In this document: piece after piece, positions 5,187 to 31,190 of the stretch | Numbering within the stretch: the stretch's first letter is position 1 | Layout of the letters: each line of letters opens with the position of its first letter | Assembly: GCF_018873765.1 (NCBI RefSeq) | Contig: NC_057922.1 | Location: 39,948,321 to 40,012,320 of the forward strand | Direction: 5' to 3' | From: Telopea speciosissima | Lineage: Eukaryota > Streptophyta > Magnoliopsida > Proteales > Proteaceae | DNA length: 64,000 nt | Position numbers and translations under genes: made by a program | Notes under the pieces: generated by a model | The model's database searches: none | Seen by the model: the letters and a program-made list of their open reading frames with translations, nothing else | What the model was told of the DNA's origin: nothing

Positions 5187-6451
5187 AAACCGATGCGGGG
5201 TGTTGGGACTAAAAGTTAGACCCGACTTCCTCAAATTTATCTCCTGCCCACTCACCTGGCAATATAAGTCCAGACAACCCTTCTAATGGACCACCTCATT
5301 AAGCTTCAGTTCTAAGAAGAGGAGAGCATCGTCGGCAAACAGCAGATGGGATATCCTTGGGGCACGGTTTCTGACTTTAATTCCTCTTGTTAGTTGAGCA
5401 GATTCAGCTGTCTCAATGATGGCGCTAAGAACCTGAGAACAAAGAATAAAGATGAAGGGGGAAAGAGGATCCCCTCGTCTTATACCCTTGGAGGGAGAGA
5501 AAGAACCTTTTATACAACCATTGACAAGAAGAGTGTAAGAGACCGAAGAGATGCAATCCATCACCATATTAACCCACTGACTACAAAAGCCTAGCCTACA
5601 AGGGATTCCCTTATAAAAACCCATTCCATCCTATCATATGCCTTTTTCATATCTAACTTAACAACCAAGAATTTTTTCCCCCCTTTTTTTGATGTTTAAT
5701 ATAGTGGAACATTTCATGAGCAATGAAAATGTTATCAGAAATCAGTCTATCGGGAATAAAGGCTGATTGATTAGGAGAAATGATACCTTGAAGCATTACC
5801 TTGAGTCTCTCGGCCATAATTTTGGAAATTACCTTAGAAATGACCCCACACAAGCTAATGGGGCGGAAGTGCTCTACAGACTCAGGAGAGAGAAATTTAG
5901 GGACTAGGCATATAAACGTTTTGTTGAGCTCCTTTGGCATGTGCCCGGTCGAGAAGAAATCCACCACACACCGGTACAGGTCCTCCTTCGTAATCTGCCA
6001 ATACTGTTGAAAGAAGAGAGGAGGGAAACTCTCTGGCCCTGGCGACTTTAACGGTCCCATATCCGTGAGAGCACGATGGACTTCCTCCAACGTAGGAATG
6101 GCGCACAGAGCAATATTCAGCTCCTCAGAAACCATTGGATGAACATTATGCAGCGCTTAAGCCAGGGCATCAGAGTCAATTCCCTGAGAGTGGACCGCAA
6201 AAATGAAGTGATTCAGAAGTTCATTACTCACTTCTGTCTCTGATCTAGACCAATCCCCCCGGGCCAGCTTAAGTTTAAGGATTCTGTTACTCTGCCTTCA
6301 TTGCAATGTCGAGGCATGAAAAAACGCAGAGTTCTTGTCTCCATGTTGGATCCAATCTATGCGGTATTTTTGATGCCACATTATCTCCTCCCATTCCAAT
6401 TCTTCTTCTAATCTCTGCGTAAGCTTGGTTTCCTGGTCCTGAGAGAAATAT
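5187..6451 (-). pseudogene. LINE-A ORF2, RT half
   Basis: Reading down from 6451, the order is the linker ('TQRLEEELEWEE'), the RT fingers ('LKSPGPESFPPLFFQQYW'), 'FRPISLCGVISKVISKIMAERL', '[14 protein letters not shown]', 'IRRGDPLSPFIFILC' and the catalytic 'LLFADDALLF'. The catalytic pair of aspartates is intact here, unlike the other copy. Frameshifts near 5650 and 6140 break the reading frame. The protein continues at 2462 beyond the solo LTR. Confidence 0.88.
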
Positions 6452-6589
6452 TGTGTTATATGCATTAAGATATATTGGATGTGTGCCAATACAAAATGGG
6501 GTATTTGATCGAATTAGACTAAGAAATTTAACATTTGGAGACCATGTCCTCTCTATCCTCAACTATGGGAATTGAAATATTAATTTTCT

Positions 6590-7133
6590 TTTCTTTTGGG
6601 TAGAAATTGCAACTTTATTTAATCAACGTGTAGTACACAAAAAATTATCACCTCAATATGCCTACTCGTCAATTTCTTTAATTCCCTTTAATAGAGGGAG
6701 GTGGACCCCACCTGGGCAGTATGTTCAAGCAGGGGGTAGGGTGGTCATTTCTCCCCCTATTAGATGGAATTGAGGAAATTAATGGATAGGTAAATTGAGG
6801 GGATAAAGATCCATAGTACACACAGGTGGAGAATTGACAAACTCCACAATCCATGGATCGAAAACAGGCTAGACTATTGTACACGTTACCGACAAAGCCC
6901 TCCTTGCAAGGGAGTTAGTAAAGCTATTTTGCTCCCTTGGAACATAAGAAAAAATACAAGAAGAAAGAAGGGATGACAAATAAATGATATTATCCAAGAT
7001 TGGCTTAACCTCCAGTAATATGGTACCACCACCTTGTTGAAGAAATTAGATAATGTCTTTCTGATCAGACATTACCATTAAAGCATCATAACCACCGGTA
7101 GTAGCCTCCACCGTAGCCGATCAGATAGCCAAG
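6590..7133 (-). pseudogene. LINE-C 3' fragment, copy 1
   Basis: This is a decayed tail of a third LINE family. Read on the minus strand it encodes the end of an RNase H domain ('WRPALLAREALSVTC'-like in broken frames, clearer in copy 2) and a 3' UTR with 'aaataaagttg'-type sequence. It is interrupted by MITE-B and stops at the duplication joint at 7133. Confidence 0.6.
6640..6813 (+). mobile_element. MITE-B copy 1 with 9-bp target duplication
   Basis: A 174-bp insert is present that the other copy of the duplicated block lacks. It is flanked by 'tagtacaca' on both sides (6631-6639 and 6814-6822). Its ends are roughly inverted ('attatcacctcaat' against 'attgaggggataaag'). A relative lies at 63712-63880. 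The 9-bp duplication suggests a Mutator-like origin, which is an inference. Confidence 0.8.
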
Positions 7134-7587
7134 GATTAGTATATTAGGAAGCAGTTTTCTGTCTGATAGTGTTTTTATAAAAAATGCCAACACTTTCATG
7201 TATCTACCTCTCTCCTCCTCAAAACAAGGGGCAAAGGTGTCTTTTCATATGGGGAGGAGACAGATAGACTTATGGAAATGCTGGTGTAGGCCTCATTCCC
7301 GGACATAGTGCTTTTTCTCTTATTATATTAATTATGTAATGAAAGGTGATGATTTAATAATCATAGAACAAATTTGACTCATTTATTTTATGTTTTTTTA
7401 AAATTATAATTCAAATCATTTGCCTTTAGTCAAATTAGGAAAGTACATAGTAATGTCTAAAATAGTGTTATATGCATTAAGATATATTGGATGCGTGTCA
7501 ATACAAAAGGGGGGTATTTGATTGAATTAGACTATGAAATTTAACATTTGGAGACCATGTCCTATCTATCCCCAACTATTGGAATTG

Positions 7588-7633
<46 letters not shown>

Positions 7634-7990
7634 TTTGGTGGAAATAACAACTTTATTTAATCAACGTGTAGTACACACGGGTGGAGAATTAACAAACTCC
7701 ACAATCCATGGATCAAAATTAGGCCAGACGATCGTACACGTTACCGACAGAACCCTCCTTGCCAGGTAGTCAATAAAGCTATTTTGTTCCCTTAGAACAT
7801 AAGAAAAAAATACAAGAAGAAAGAACGGATGACACATAAATGATATCATCCAAGATTGACTTAACCTCCAGTTATATGGTACCACGACCATGTTGAAGAT
7901 ATTAGATAATGTCTTTATGATCAGACATTACCAATAAAGCATCATAACCACTAGTGGTAGCCTCCACCATAATCGATCGGATAGCTAAGG
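7134..7990 (+). repeat. Tandem block copy 2, containing the fullest MITE-A
   Basis: This second copy of the duplicated block begins 'attagtatattaggaagcag', as at 363. It contains MITE-A at about 7140-7320, whose right end 'cattcccggacat' is inverted relative to 'gttcgggaatg' in the copy at 54849. About 150 bp of AT-rich sequence follows, then the LINE-C tail. The joint between copies is at 7133/7134. Confidence 0.75.
7592..7633 (+). repeat. (ATT)n microsatellite at a LINE-C tail
   Basis: A run of about 13 ATT units directly abuts the 3' end of the LINE-C fragment. It probably grew from the retrotransposon's A-rich tail, read on the opposite strand. Confidence 0.85.
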
Positions 7991-8031: not shown

Positions 8032-8108
8032 GAATCGGGCGATTGGAGCGATTTTTCCTCTAGTTGTGGCGATAGATAGTCTATCAGAAAGCTTCCTTTT
8101 CTTGCTCC

Positions 8109-9120
8109 ATGACCACCGGCGGTACTCCTCCGGTGGTCCCCCCTGTCCCCTGGCCCCCTGGTCAAGTAGGAGGCATTGTGCCTGGGCCACAAGATGTCTC
8201 TGATGGCCGGTGGTCCTCGCTCTTTTCTAATGCTGGTGGTAAGGATAAAGGGGTGTCATTATCCTTTGTGGAACCTGAGCAGATCGATGGTGTTAAAGTT
8301 GCTCACCTCTCGGCTCAGGACGTTGACGCTGAAATCGATCGGTGGAGCACAGCTTTGGTGGGGTATGTTCTTGGGCCTCGGCCTTCCTTTCCCTCCATGA
8401 GGCTCTTTGTTCAGGAGCACTGGGAGCCAGGCAGTGCGATTGAGGTCTTTGGGTTGGAAAGCGGGGTTTTTGTCTTTGATTTTCAGTCTGTGGAGCTTCG
8501 CCAGCAGGTACTGGATAATGGACCGTGGAGGTTTGGGGCCAGACCTTTGATCATTCGACCTTGGTCGACGGAGATTTCCCTCTCTTCTAAGCAGAAAGAC
8601 ATTCTTCCCTTATGGGTCCGTTTTCCTAGCCTCAACCTCCACCTGTGGGGAGATCGGTGTTTTGAGCGTTTGGCTACTGTCATCGGCAAACCCATATGCA
8701 CGGACCGGTGAACGATGACTAGGGAACGGTTATCCTTTGCTAGGGTTTGCGTTCTGATCCGAGCGGCGGATGGCTTACCTGATCAGGTCTCTATGGTGCT
8801 GGCGGATGGTACGCGCTTGTCATAGTTGGTAGAATATGATTGGTGCCCCTTGCTATGTATAGGGTGTGTTGCTTTTGGCCACTCCTCTAACTCTTGCCCT
8901 TCGGCGACAACCCCCTCTGCGGATTTCGAGATGCCTGCACCTTCCTGGTGGTAAGGACCTAGATCCCGTTGGCATTCCGACAAGCGGGCAGCACCCTCTC
9001 CTACTGTCAAAGCTGAGATGAATACTCCTATGGCTGAGCCGATTGTGATGGCAATTGATGCGATCGAACCAGACCCGGTTCAGGCCTTACTAGGTGCTGT
9101 GCACCCTGACTCCTCTACTG
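8109..9120 (+). pseudogene. LINE-B ORF1 (DUF4283 / zinc knuckle)
   Basis: The first 200 codons (8109-8711) are open and contain a DUF4283 domain. 'STALVGYVLGPRPSF' opens the fold, 'VFDFQSVELRQQVLDNGPW' is the core and 'LWVRFPSLNLHLW' ends it. A stop at 8709-8711 follows 'GKPICTDR'. The reading resumes with 'WCPLLCIGCVAFGHSSNSC', a CCHC-type knuckle at about 8840-8900. The family's ORF1 protein is an RNA-binding chaperone. The stop before the knuckle would remove RNA binding. The start is the first ATG, 77 bp into the element. Confidence 0.85.
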
Positions 9121-14387: not shown

Positions 14388-14640
14388 TCATTATTATTTG
14401 TTAATATTATTAAGGTAAAGTACATCTGGCTGGTTCAAAATATTGTCACATGGTATCTGATTTGTCCAACTAGGTCTTTTGCTTACATGTTAAGTTTCAT
14501 TCAATCAAAAAAGGGAAAATTACATTGTCGACCACTGAGGTTTGTACTAAATACAGAGTGACCCCCTATGTTTCTAATTTATACAAACGCACTCCCTGAG
14601 TGGACGGTGTTAAATAATATAATGTAAAATGCCAACTTTG
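13791..14640. other. LINE-C remainder, putative hAT-like MITE, AAT repeat
   Basis: After LINE-B's target duplication, LINE-C sequence resumes for roughly 50 bp. A ~500-bp element follows (about 13849-14345) with imperfect inverted ends 'aggggtgtcaat' and 'attgacatccct'. An (AAT)n run lies at 14355-14389. The stretch 14510-14640 holds another dispersed-repeat end ('gaggtttgtactaaataca') with no gene. Confidence 0.5.
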
Positions 14641-16105
14641 CCCTCTAAAGTTCTGACAAGTCCACACGCACCCCCTGAAAATTCCACGGACCACCCCTAC
14701 TTTAACCCCCTAAAGCCATTAAGTCCAAATCGTTAACTTTAGGCATTAAGTGCAAAAAATTGACCAAACTACCCTTCCTTCTATCCTTTTTAAAATCTGA
14801 AATTACCTAATTGCCCTTACCTATTAGTTCACTACTTGGAAAGACATTTTTACTCTAATCTAATTTGAAAATACCCTATTGTCCCCACCCCCTACCCTTT
14901 TGCAATCGAACGCAGAGACGCAACCACCTCGTTGAACCCGATAGATCGAGTCAGAGAACATCTTGGCGACAAGGGTGGTGACTCGGATGGAGGTGACAGG
15001 GGAGGCAATATGAAGGTTGAAGTTGGTGATGATAACAGAGGATTCTTAGTCAAGTAAGAATCAAAAGAATGACGGAGAGGGGATACATCGAACGAATCAG
15101 ACGAAACAGGGGTTCTAGGGCTCTGCTGCGGCAACACTCGAAGCTGCTCAGGAGTGTGAGCGAAGAAGCAAACACGACGACGACAATTAGTCCCATCCTT
15201 GCAAGGCTGGGTACGATAATGAGCCGGGTGAAGCCAACACTCAATCAAACACGCCATGTGCAAACTCACAGGAATCCCCACTCTTGCAGTTCCCTTTACG
15301 AAAATCAGGACAAGCAGTGCCAGAGTAATGGAACTTACATGGGTCTCTACGCAGTGCTTTCTCACCGGGATGAACGTACGGACACTCAGTCCAGTCATGA
15401 GAACGGCCTCGTGCACACCGTCGCACCTCGAACTCATAGATGCGAAATTCATCCGTAGAGAATGGTCCCACCGGCATATCGGCCTCACGGCCCGGTGAAT
15501 CAGAATCAACATCAATATCGTTTGACGGTAGGTAGCGTTGCAGTGCCGCTAACGCTTCACCATACGGATAAGAAGAGTGGTCTCCTTCAGAGGCGGCGCC
15601 GCCGACACCACCACCGCCACCGCCACCGCCACCACAACCATTTGAAGAGATACCACTTGCAGGGAGAAAAAAGTTCATACCTGTAGAAGAATCATCAAAG
15701 AGAGTCCATGGAGGGACATGAACAGTGGGATTGTGATGGTTACCTTCTCAGTGGGACATGAAGAATCATCAAAGAGAGTCCAGTGAGTTCGATTGCAAAA
15801 GGGTAGGGATGGGGGCAATAGGGTATTTTCAAATTAGATTAGGGTAAAACTGTCTTCTCAAGTAATGAACTAATAGGTTAGGGCAATTAGGTGATTTCAG
15901 ATTTTAGAAAAGATAGAAGGAGGGGTAGTTTGGTTAATTTTTTGTATTTAACCTCTAAATTAACGATTTGGACTTAAATAGTTTTAGGGGGATAAAATAT
16001 GGATGGTACATGGAATTTTCAAGGGTGCATGTAGACTTATCAGAACTTTAGGGGGCATGAGGAATAATATTGGGTGCATTATAGGGGGTTATGTGTATTT
16101 AACCC
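14641..16105. mobile_element. Long-TIR element (Pack-type) carrying a CCCH gene fragment
   Basis: Two arms of about 265-320 bp (14641-14905 and 15788-16105) are inverted copies of each other. For example, 'aaaataccctattg' on the left is 'caatagggtatttt' on the right, and 'gttctgacaagtcc' pairs with its complement near 16030. Between them lies only a fragment of a host CCCH zinc-finger gene. The right end is 'tgtgtatttaaccc'. The left outer ~100 bp are replaced by another repeat. Long TIRs around a host gene piece with no transposase are the hallmark of Pack-MULE-like elements. The same arm family occurs at 29554. Confidence 0.85.
14886..15755 (-). pseudogene. CCCH tandem zinc-finger protein fragment (plant RR-TZF class), frameshifted
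   Basis: Translation from the minus strand gives '[14 protein letters not shown]' near the N-terminus, a glycine run, then the plant arginine-rich region ('[20 protein letters not shown]', '[12 protein letters not shown]'). Two CCCH fingers follow: '[19 protein letters not shown]' and, in the next frame, '[16 protein letters not shown]'. The serine-rich tail ends abruptly at '[11 protein letters not shown]', where the terminal repeat begins. A 4-bp duplication (TCAATCAA at 15241-15248 on the plus strand) shifts the frame between the fingers, just after 'EFAHGVF'. A stop also lies upstream of 'GNHHNP'. The family binds RNA in stress and hormone responses. This copy lacks its start, its C-terminus and a single frame, so it is a captured, intronless remnant. 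Identity is very secure from the spacing of the cysteines and histidines. Confidence 0.93.
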
Positions 16106-20865: not shown

Positions 20866-22345
20866 TTAAGAACCGTTTATTAAATGTTTTCACGGTTTCG
20901 ATTTTAATGGTTCGGTTTGGTTTCAGTAAATGGTTTTTGTTTGATTTCGACACATTTATGTACATCTAAGACTGTTAAACAGTCTGGTTTGATTTAAATC
21001 GCTTAATTAAACAGTCTCAATATTGAAACAATAATCGAACAATTTATTAAATAGTTTCGTGGTTTCAGTTTAAACAGTTTGGTTTCAGTAAACGGGTTTT
21101 GTTTGATTTCGACACATTTATGTACATCTAAGAGTGTTAAATGGTTTGGTTCGGTTTAAACCATTTAATTAAACGGTCTCAATGTTGAAACAATAATCGA
21201 ACCATTTATTAAATGTTTTCACGGTTTCGATTTTAATGGTTCGGTTTGGTTTCGGTAAACGGTTTTTGTTTAATTTCGATACATTTATGTACATCTAAGA
21301 GTGTTTAACGGTTCAGTTCGATTTAAATCGTTTAATCAAATGGTCTCAATTTTGAAACCATAATCGAATCGTTTATTAAATGTTTTCACGGTTTCGATTT
21401 GGTTTCGGTAAACAGTTTTTGTTTGATTTCGACACATTATGTACATCTAAGAGTGTTAAACGGTCCGGTTTGATTTAAATTGTTTAATTAAATGGTCTCA
21501 ATTTTGAAACCATAATCGAACCATTTATTTAAATGTTTTCGCGGTTTGGATTTTAATGGTTCGGTTTGGTTTCGATAAACGGTTTTTGTTTGATTTTGAC
21601 ACATTAATAATATCTAAAAGTGTTAAACGGTCCGGTTCGATTTGAATCATTTAATCAAATGACTCAATTTTGAAACTATAATCGAACAGTTTATTAAATG
21701 TTTTCATGGTTTCGATTTTAATGGTTCGGTTTGGTTTTGGTAAACGATTTTTGTTTGATTTCAACACATTATGTACATCTAAGAGTGTTAAATGGTCCAG
21801 TTCGATTTAAATCGTTTAAGTAAATGGTCTCAATTTTAAAACCATAATCGAAACGTTTATTAAATATTTTCGCGGTTTGGATTTTAGTGGTTCAGTTTGG
21901 TTTCGGTAAACGATTTTTGTTTGATTTTGACACATTATGAACATGTAAGAGTGTTAAATGGTCCGGTTCGATTTAAATCGTTTAATTAAATGGTCTCAAT
22001 TTTGAAACCATAATCGAACCGTTTATTAGATGTTTTCACGGTTTCGATTTTAATGGTTCAGTTTGGTTTCAGTAAACGGTTTTTGTTTGATTTTGACACA
22101 TTTATGTACATCTAAGAGTGTTAAACAGTCCGGTTCGATTTAAATCGTTTAATTAAACGATCTCAATGTTGAAACAATAATCGAACCATTTATTAAACAG
22201 TTTCGTGGTTTCGGTTTTAAACAGTTTTTGTTTGATTTTGGCACATTTATATATGTACAAGAGTGTTAAATGGTCCGGTTCGATTTAAACCATTTAATTA
22301 AACGGACTCAATGTTGAAATCATAACTGGTTCATTTATCAAACGG
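20866..22345 (+). repeat. Satellite-like tandem array, ~165-bp unit, about nine copies
   Basis: Units can be phased on 'ataatcgaac..tttatta', at about 20866, 21030, 21192, 21361, 21513, 21681, 21846, 22010, 22179 and 22321. Spacings are 142-169 bp. Each unit has 'ggttcggtttggttt', 'cacatttatgtacatctaa', 'gtgttaaa' and 'ggtctcaat.ttgaaa'. The unit at 21361 lacks ~16 bp of the 'gattttaatggttcg' segment. Two more diverged units lie at 28215-28585. No coding function is seen. Confidence 0.92.
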
Positions 22346-22596
22346 TTCGGTTCGGTATTGGTTAACTCGGAAACTAATACGGAATTGGATCGGTATGTAC
22401 AAGGATCGGTCATATTGGACAAATTTACCCTTGATCTTCCTTTAAAAATAATTTTTTTGATAGGTTTACCCCTTGTCCATACCGTGTCACTGGTACGATA
22501 TCGGGATATTGTATCGGCAAAGTGCAAAACCAGTATGGTACTTTGAACCATGGTTTTTTTTCTCACTTTGGCTTCAATTATATGAGATAAGAATGA

Positions 22597-28214: not shown

Positions 28215-28585
28215 CTGTTGGCCCCGCCCCTAAGGGTGTTAAATGTTCTGATTTTGGTTAAACAGTTCAGTTTGGTTCAAACTGTTTAATTAAACGGTTT
28301 CAATTTTGAAATCATAATCGAACCATTTATTAAATGGTTTCACGGTTTCGGTTTTAAACGGTTCTGTTCGTTTCGGTAAATGATTTGTGTTTGCTTTTGG
28401 CACATTTATGTGCATTTAAGAGTGTTAAACGGTTTATTCTGTTAAACGGTTCGATTCGATTCAAACCATTTAACTAAATGGCCTCAATTTTAAAACCATA
28501 ACCGAACCATTTATTAAATGGTTTCACGTTTCAATTTAAATGATTCGATTCAATTTTGGTAAACGATTTTGATTTGATTTTGACA
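28215..28585 (+). repeat. Two diverged units of the ~165-bp repeat
   Basis: 'cataatcgaaccatttattaa', 'cacatttatgtgcatttaag' and 'agtgttaaacgg' repeat the motifs of the 20866-22345 array. The pair interrupts the LTR-like sequence on both sides. It therefore looks like an inserted element of two units rather than a decayed part of the main array. Confidence 0.75.
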
Positions 28586-29158
28586 CCCTTGTCCCCGCTC
28601 CACACCCTTGTTGAGTTTCCTTCTCATAGGATGATGCCACACGTTGGGTTTCCTCCTCAAGGGAGGGGATCACTTGGATAATGACTATCCAAAGGGAAGA
28701 AGGGGTGATGACATCACCCACATGATAGTTGTTGTAGTGATAGTGATTTACTCACTCTCTCACATCAGTTATTGAAGCCGACTTACATTTTCCTCTTCTT
28801 GTTTCTATATAAAGGAGGGAGAGTAAGAGATGTACTAATAGATTTCGAGATGAAGACTTATTGTGAGATCTCTTCTTTTGTGGATCCTAGACCCTAATAA
28901 TCAAAGTGCTATCATAGAGTTAATTTTTCTTTTGTGGGTCTTAGACCCTATTAATCTAGGTGGCGACTCCAACATTGAATTCACCTCTCTTCTCCCCAAA
29001 GAGTGGTGAGGTGGAGGACACATTGCGAACCCCTACCATATCATTGTCCTCACACATAACAACCCCTTCCTTAGAATCCCTTTGTAACCTAGGATTTCAA
29101 AGAGAAGGAGAGGAGGCGGAGAGCTTGTAGGACAACTCTCAAATCAAAACTGGAGAAT
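28586..29158. other. LTR-like remainder and element leader
   Basis: The sequence includes 'tttctatataaaggaggga', a TATA-like box (about 28802-28815), and 'ggtggcgactccaac' near 28960. The last ~120 bp precede a tRNA-Met primer site on the minus strand and are the internal leader of the element at 29159-29450. No coding sequence is seen. Confidence 0.4.
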
Positions 29159-29450: not shown

Positions 29451-29836
29451 CAATGTGCATGCATGTTTTGCATACTACCATGGGCCTGGCTACCAGGGCC
29501 ATTTATGGTTGGCCCTGCAAAGCCATGGCTTAAACTCGAACTAATTTAAGAAAGGGTTCAATATGCGTACCCCCCTAAAATGCACCCAATATTCCTCGTA
29601 CCCCGCTAAGGTTCTGACAAGTCCATGTACCACCCCTAAAAATTCCACGTACCACCCCTACTTTACCCCCCTAAAGCCATTTTAGTCCACACCCAGCATT
29701 AAATGCTAAAAAATGACCAAACTACCCTTTCTTCTATCTTTTCTAAAATTTGAAAAGACCTAATGCCCTGACCTATTTGCTAAAATTTGAAAAGGCCAAA
29801 ATACCCTCATCTTCCCCAAATCATCATCTTCTTTTA

Positions 29837-29963
29837 CAATGTAGATACCCAATACTACCACCACCACCACCCAACATTACCATCACCACCGTGAAGCCCC
29901 ACCTCCAGCACCACCTCCAACTCCTCCACCTTTACCAATTCCACCACCTAGTCCCCCTCCCTT
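29837..29963 (+). repeat. Inner inverted arm, left
   Basis: 'caatgtagatacccaata' followed by CCA/CCT-rich sequence is mirrored at 30754-30894. In one frame both arms read as proline-rich (PPP...TPPPLP), so they may themselves be a captured exon duplicated in inverse. Confidence 0.8.
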
Positions 29964-30004
29964 GCTTATTCGTCCACCAACACCGTCGCCCTTACCATTG
30001 AAAT

Positions 30005-30415
30005 TCAGGCACCCATGGCAGGTAAAGTGTGAACCTCCTCAGTGCTCCTAGGCTGTAGCAAAACCTTGCTCCAGCCCTTGTATTTCCGCATCCAATCCTC
30101 ATTTGCTGTCAACAGCCTATCTTCATCCTGAATGACATTTTTCTCCCCTAATATCTCTTTAAAATAGGCAGTGTCATCAGAATTTATCATTGAAAATGAA
30201 GGGTTCCTCTGAACTCTTGCAGCCCCCGAAGCAAAGGAACGACAATGGATTCTGTAAATTTTGTACAAATTTCTTGTTGGAAAATTTTGAAGGTTTCCAA
30301 TGGAATCTCTTAAAGGATGGGAATATGTTTCAACATTCTGCTTTTCATTTTCAAAATATCGCTCTACTCTTTCGAGATTATCTTTGGAACCTACAAAAGT
30401 GTCTTCCATTAGCAT
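30005..30415 (-). pseudogene. D-2-hydroxyglutarate dehydrogenase N-terminal fragment
   Basis: This is a 136-codon open frame. Residues about 58-128 read like the N-terminus of plant mitochondrial D2HGDH: 'VQRNPSFSMINSDD', 'YFKEILGEKNVIQDEDRLL', 'ANEDWMRKYKG' and 'KVLLQPRSTEEV'. The family is an FAD-linked enzyme that oxidises D-2-hydroxyglutarate in mitochondria. Here homology stops at 'STEEV', before the FAD-binding domain, and the frame runs into the proline-rich arm. Residues 1-57 are not recognised and may come from a second source. It cannot encode an enzyme. Assignment rests on remembered family sequence. Confidence 0.75.
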
Positions 30416-30753
30416 AAATCAAAAAACAAACATCTTTTGCATTTTCCCCCAAAAGATGAAAAGAAAGGAGTGTCCATCAACTCTTCCCAGTAAACTATTT
30501 CCAGAAGAATCAACTGCAATACCCTAGAATGAAAACGATACATAACACGAAGCTAGAAAGCAATCAAATGTCTTGAAACTTTTAACAGTATCCCGCCATT
30601 GTTCCACGGTTTTGGTAGTCTCCTTGGTCAGTGAATCAAGCAACAGTTGTGTTTATGATCAATCTCTGGAAATTAACACAAATTAAGTAGAGAAAAGGGA
30701 AAAATAATCTATGAAATTCCCTATAAGAAAATTCTAGATGGGGTGCAGAAAGG

Positions 30754-30894
30754 AAAGGGAGGGGGAATCGGTGGCAGAATTGGTAAAGGTGGAGGAGTTG
30801 GAAGTGGTGCTGGAGGTGGGGCTTCATGGTGGGGATGGTGTTAATGGTGGGTGGCAGTGGTGGTGGTGGTATTGGGTATCTAGTATCTACATTG
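30754..30894 (-). repeat. Inner inverted arm, right
   Basis: This is the inverse of 29837-29963, with small indels (an extra 'tagtatc' near 30880 and extra GGT triplets). The homology ends exactly where the Copia LTR starts. Confidence 0.8.
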
Positions 30895-31190
30895 TTGTTG
30901 ACAAAACAGGAATTTCGTGAATGGCTTGAATGATCAATGAGATCAGTCAAGCTCTCTATTTATAATAATAATAATAAAAGAGATTACAAAGGAAATACTG
31001 TTCATGACACTGTTCACGTGAACAGTGTCACAACCCAAATTATAATTCTACCCTTGTTCAAAAGTACATAATTAAAGCATAAATAAAATAACAAAAATAC
31101 CCTTATCATATCGGATAACACATCTCAACACTCCCCCTCAAGTTGGAGCATAGATATCACACATGCCCAACTTGACTAGACTAGGATAAA
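30893..31190 (-). mobile_element. Copia 3' LTR with polypurine tract and internal remnant
   Basis: On the minus strand 'caacttgagggggag' (plus 31131-31145) is a polypurine tract. It is followed directly by an LTR of 238 bp from TGTTGAGATG (ending at plus 31130) to CAACAACA (plus 30893). Inside the LTR is a perfect 26-bp palindrome at 31005-31030 centred on CACGTG. The same 'ctccccctcaagttggagc' stretch lies at 47301, where it follows a Copia pol. Only ~60 bp of internal sequence remains here. Confidence 0.8.

Follow-up and report, generated by a model that had tools for sequence, protein, structure and literature searches.

Two elements carrying pieces of two different host genes were found in the window, a stretch of 64,000 nucleotides of Telopea speciosissima DNA that forms part of contig 7 (C7) of an 823 Mb assembly of 1287 contigs, in which the chromosome-sized ones are numbered 1 to 11. 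We assign both to a single family of non-autonomous Mutator-like elements (Pack-MULEs), with a probability of about 0.9. This assignment is based on the shared arms and termini, on 9-bp target duplications, on donors for the D2HGDH, CCCH, LEAFY and COG4 pieces (the four pieces for which donors were sought) and on captured pieces recurring at unrelated sites. The first-pass annotation could not match the family to a named one, but Pack-MULE fits it by the 9-bp duplications (9-11 bp being the range for this class), the long terminal inverted repeats (TIRs), the host gene pieces matched to donors and the non-autonomous make-up.

The D2HGDH-carrying element begins at position 29554 with the sequence GGGTTCAATATGCGTACCCCCC, and its complete left arm (29554..30022, forward strand) belongs to a repeat found throughout the genome. 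Most family copies share their first bases, GGGTTAAATAC, and start at the same base. The outer 224 bp of the arm (29554-29777) align with 16105-15872 on the reverse strand (77.3% identity in 238 columns, E 8e-46). With the order kept, 29602-29777 also aligns with 14641-14825 at 80.1% (E 1.5e-42). The claim that the outer 200 bp or so resemble the arms of the element at 14.6 kb in both order and sequence is thus borne out by the two alignments. The arm is complete on the left side only. What remains on the right (30755..30895, forward strand) is an inverted return of the inner part of the arm with 88% identity to 29842-29963 of the left arm, and the outer 280 bp or so of the right arm were not found in the remainder of the window to the right. 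A Copia-like long terminal repeat, called by eye from its TGTTGA...TCAACA ends and the purine tract preceding it, lies at the break (about 30896; 30896..31129, reverse strand); no second copy of it was found within the window. The element is a damaged family copy, and its right end was probably lost later, at this Copia-like repeat.

The innermost part of the left arm encodes, in the outward direction, a glycine-rich peptide (29889..30022, reverse strand, by translation) with a counterpart at the inner end of the right arm (30740-30841, forward strand). The left-arm peptide reads GGGLGGGIGKGGGVGGGAGGGAS. Judged from the translations, these inner arm ends may represent an older captured piece of a host gene that is now present in both arms.

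The cargo between the arms (30023..30734, reverse strand) matches the 5' end of the native D2HGDH gene. It comprises about 480 bp of upstream sequence, one exon and the first 10 bp or so of the next intron, the exon end being inferred. The part encoding the N-terminal residues (30032..30241, reverse strand) was located by tblastn with an Arabidopsis query, and the encoded protein matches the D-2-hydroxyglutarate dehydrogenase structure PDB 6lpn (E 1e-7). The Pfam search gave no D2HGDH family for this piece and the name rests on tblastn and PDB; an influenza domain that Pfam matched weakly (E 0.005, short of the cut-off) was dismissed as chance. The native gene is found on C5, with one exon at 8082-8303 of locus L011, the next at 8741-8848 and further matches in locus L012. 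The cargo is 93.6% identical to 7602-8313 of L011 over 714 columns, and the description of the cargo as the N-terminus of a mitochondrial dehydrogenase agrees with both the structural match and the donor gene.

As the cargo extends about 10 bp beyond the inferred exon end, it was copied as DNA, and the retained upstream sequence and intron start show that it is no processed copy, from which introns and upstream sequence would have been removed. These features also weigh on the possibility that an ordinary duplicate of D2HGDH, processed or segmental, lies by chance beside an unrelated inverted repeat. The incomplete right arm is in favour of such a duplicate, as is the lack of a target duplication at the window copy, although each of the two window elements is missing one terminus. 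The limits of the donor match nevertheless nearly coincide with the limits of the arms (30022/30023 and about 30734), and elsewhere the same arms enclose other genes in the same place. A chance neighbourhood of this kind is therefore most improbable, and the piece is better read as the cargo of a Pack-MULE.

Another D2HGDH start was observed on C10, in an element (5885-7790 of locus L013) that has a different pair of inverted arms (78.6% identity over 243 columns) and whose right end reads GGGTTAATTCC. The C10 piece is 94.8% identical to 7333-8259 of L011, and its arms have only stretches of 16-31 bases in common with the window arm. As both the limits and the arms differ, the C10 piece is read as a second capture, the gene start having been taken up on at least two occasions. 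In an alignment of 640 columns, the native gene alone differs in 7, the window copy alone in 30 and the C10 copy alone in 17, and all three sequences differ in 3. Four of the 7 that set the native gene apart from both copies resemble CpG loss by eye, and for this reason the differences shared by the two copies are not taken as proof of a common capture.

The second element in the window has a left arm at 14639..14914 (forward strand, by alignment; its outer 48 bp or so are absent) and a right arm at 15784..16105 (reverse strand) with the terminus GGGTTAAATACACATA. Its cargo (14915..15783, reverse strand) is a CCCH zinc-finger gene piece (AtC3H23 type, E 9.6e-19) whose frame is broken. The interval C7:59689777-59690604, which is 93% identical over 835 query bases, is the likely donor as judged by this match.

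The arms of both elements belong to a large family. With the window stretch as the query, 97 arm matches were found among the best 40 of 2467 candidates scored, and a pattern of 29 bases for the terminus, with 3 mismatches allowed, has at least 452 matches (223 forward and 229 reverse), the same pattern read backwards giving 0 in either direction. From 36 loci around arm matches (L015-L050), 24 copies with two arms were delimited; the other 12 show a single arm in the stretch examined, most of the later ones being 2.4-2.5 kb long. The arms are about 300-480 bp long, mostly 400-480 bp, and agree well up to position 420-440 or so, beyond which they diverge. In a separate analysis of pairs, 39 arms and 99 termini from the matches listed were combined into 138 places, with some arms counted twice and one terminus on a small contig omitted. 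Twenty-three head-to-head pairs were found among these places, and 21 of them span 1.0-2.7 kb, with one of 7.5 kb and one of 20.8 kb (on C6). The pair of 7.5 kb (C1:71070466-71078031) was considered as an autonomous element and rejected, being by eye an ordinary-sized copy with a nested Copia-like retrotransposon.

Exact target duplications of 9 bp were observed in 14 of 21 copies when a one-base shift was allowed, compared with 1.7% of 420 mispaired ends, and 10-bp repeats occur at the ends of only three. Seven of the 21 have no such exact repeat, and among those that do, several repeats consist of A or T runs. CACTA elements have a CACTA terminus and a 3-bp duplication, hAT elements have an 8-bp duplication and short arms, and Helitrons have neither inverted arms nor target duplications. 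This family, with duplications of 9 bp rather than 8 or 3, ends of GGGTTAAATAC rather than CACTA, and inverted arms of hundreds of bp, differs from all three. Membership of another TIR superfamily (as Pack-hAT or Pack-CACTA elements) is therefore very unlikely, even though no transposase was linked to these ends in the places searched.

Recognisable pieces of host-type genes were found in 13 of the 24 delimited copies (11 without the FAR1 pieces). The interiors are mostly unlike between copies and have 35-51% GC rather than being GC-rich. Among the pieces are a LEAFY SAM domain (L020; Pfam E 1.5e-38, also PDB 4ude) and a TMK-type receptor kinase (L032; PDB 4hq1, E 3e-51). A further TMK-type kinase piece was recognised in L017 through its leucine-rich repeats, and L043 was counted as a receptor kinase on the 96% DNA identity of its interior to that of L017, its own two frames having given no Pfam match. 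A FAR1 domain occurs in L018 and L037; this domain is related to MULE transposases, and the two pieces could be transposase remnants. The remaining copies carry a legume-lectin domain (L031), a BTB domain (L049), a reductase akin to cinnamoyl-CoA reductase (L016), an F-box protein (L047; PDB 9kkx, E 3e-13, with MAX2 homologs at only E 0.008), an F-box/LRR protein (L046; PDB 6o60, E 9e-7), a thioesterase (L029) and a MATH domain below its cut-off (L021). For the other 11 copies there is no recognised host gene or the scan was incomplete: L026 has no interior, L025 was unscanned, L019 has no 50-aa frame, 6-7 frames each were scanned in L033, L040 and L045, and L015, L022, L023, L024 and L030 were scanned within the 12-copy Pfam set.

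That set consists of 12 copies with long flanks, a small sample chosen by similarity to the window arm, in which Pfam was run at E 0.001 on frames of at least 50 aa (78 inside the arms and 129 in segments of equal length on both sides). Host-type families were found inside six of the 12 copies (L016, L017, L018, L020, L021 and L029), or five if FAR1, which was counted as host-type, is set aside. The 24 flank segments contain two host-type families (Cpn60 and HORMA) and five transposon-type families, DUF659 being assumed by us to be of the latter type. The comparison of six of 12 interiors with two families in 24 segments gives a Fisher P of 0.009, the flank families not being assigned to segments and the two host-type ones being taken as two segments. 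The claim that one arm family carries unrelated host genes is thus upheld both by the shared arms and by this enrichment. An ordinary transposon family, in which gene pieces are chance captures no commoner than in the flanking DNA, would agree with the gene pieces in the flanks and with the 11 of 24 copies in which no gene was recognised. The excess in the interiors argues against it within this small sample, as does the lack of any retrotransposon or hAT family in the 78 interior frames of the 12 copies compared with the transposon-type families of the flanks, and we consider such an explanation quite improbable beside that of a gene-capturing Pack-MULE family.

In one copy, a captured piece was also found inside another. 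At 3293-5236 of L020 (on C5), LEAFY sequence lies between two parts of COG4, together with a long AT repeat. The COG4 donor is on C3 (Pfam COG4, E 9e-75) and is matched at 93% and 89%, and the LEAFY donor on C8 is matched at 91% and 97%. At the left junction the LEAFY and COG4 matches meet at an identical base of the element, and the arrangement may be the product of two successive rounds of capture.

The elements are non-autonomous, as no transposase family was found in the 78 frames of the 12 interiors except for the ambiguous FAR1. MULE domains (PF10551) were searched for among the best 150 of 827 candidates scored, and all of them are more than 50 kb from the 138 places (arms and termini) compared, the nearest being 51 kb away. 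The family arms also have no match at eight MULE loci. A MULE transposase in autonomous copies, which the first-pass annotation had suggested looking for, was accordingly not found in the part of the genome's matches that was searched. In each element, two long inverted arms enclose part of a host gene whose DNA was copied from another place in the genome, and the element would be moved by a MULE transposase supplied in trans. Capture may occur as an element that has broken or stalled is filled in with sequence copied from an unrelated gene, through template switching or gap filling.

Different histories were observed for copies that share a cargo. L017 and L043 are alike in both cargo and flanks, and one is therefore a segmental duplicate of the other. 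L032 has the same cargo as L017 at an unrelated site, as do L018 and L037 with respect to each other (69-350 bp of flank compared), which means that elements moved after capture. The family had been described as active, and this description is not supported. The arms within one copy are 75-94% alike (6-25% different) in 18 copies, none of which has near-identical arms, and most captured pieces have diverged from their donors by 5-11%. Copies look old because of both divergences, the divergence between arms being only a loose sign of age because arms need not start identical.

Elements of this kind are known, and the present family is a rich example of Pack-MULEs. The sacred lotus (Nelumbo nucifera), a basal eudicot, is credited with 1,447 Pack-MULEs in its genome (PMC4053705); these are likewise Mutator-like elements with genes or gene fragments, the comparison being one of description. 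Among the papers listed in the literature search, none on Telopea speciosissima has this transposon family in its title, and the combination of Pack-MULE and Proteaceae gave the lotus genome only. Those described from rice, tomato, maize and Arabidopsis (PMC3310237; also PMC8903248; review, PMC13317346) are alike in their long arms, 9-11 bp duplications, non-autonomous nature and captured gene pieces. Table 4 of PMC3310237 gives them as 1.6-9.4% of all MULEs in the four genomes, compared with 13 of 24 copies with host-type pieces here, which is only a hint as the denominators differ. Animal Pack-TIRs have the same layout, and PMC8277862 proposes that they arise by gap filling or by fork stalling with template switching; according to the same source they are mostly single-copy, whereas in the present family no fewer than two captured pieces are found again at unrelated sites. 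It is a tentative and rather doubtful suggestion that a single MULE family has an unusually high rate of capture (about half of the copies, with host genes of different kinds) in successive layers. A glycine-rich gene piece would by then have become part of both arms, with COG4, and then LEAFY within COG4, copied in between them, and one stretch of D2HGDH would have been taken up at least twice by two families with different arms.

With its numerous captured plant genes, of which four have a donor located here, its layered LEAFY-in-COG4 piece and the two separate captures of one gene, this family is good material for studying the way host genes are copied by such elements. Gene annotation can be confused by pieces of regulators such as LEAFY, and these pieces could conceivably feed silencing RNAs directed against their donors.

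Two other repeat features were observed in the window. Near-identical inverted stretches (94-96%) occur towards its ends, 467-2462 being paired with 63707-61713 and 5187-6449 with 61717-60453, and these are probably oppositely oriented copies of a single element. Finally, units of about 165 bp form a tandem array at 20870-22347, with a related stretch 6 kb away at 28257-28586.
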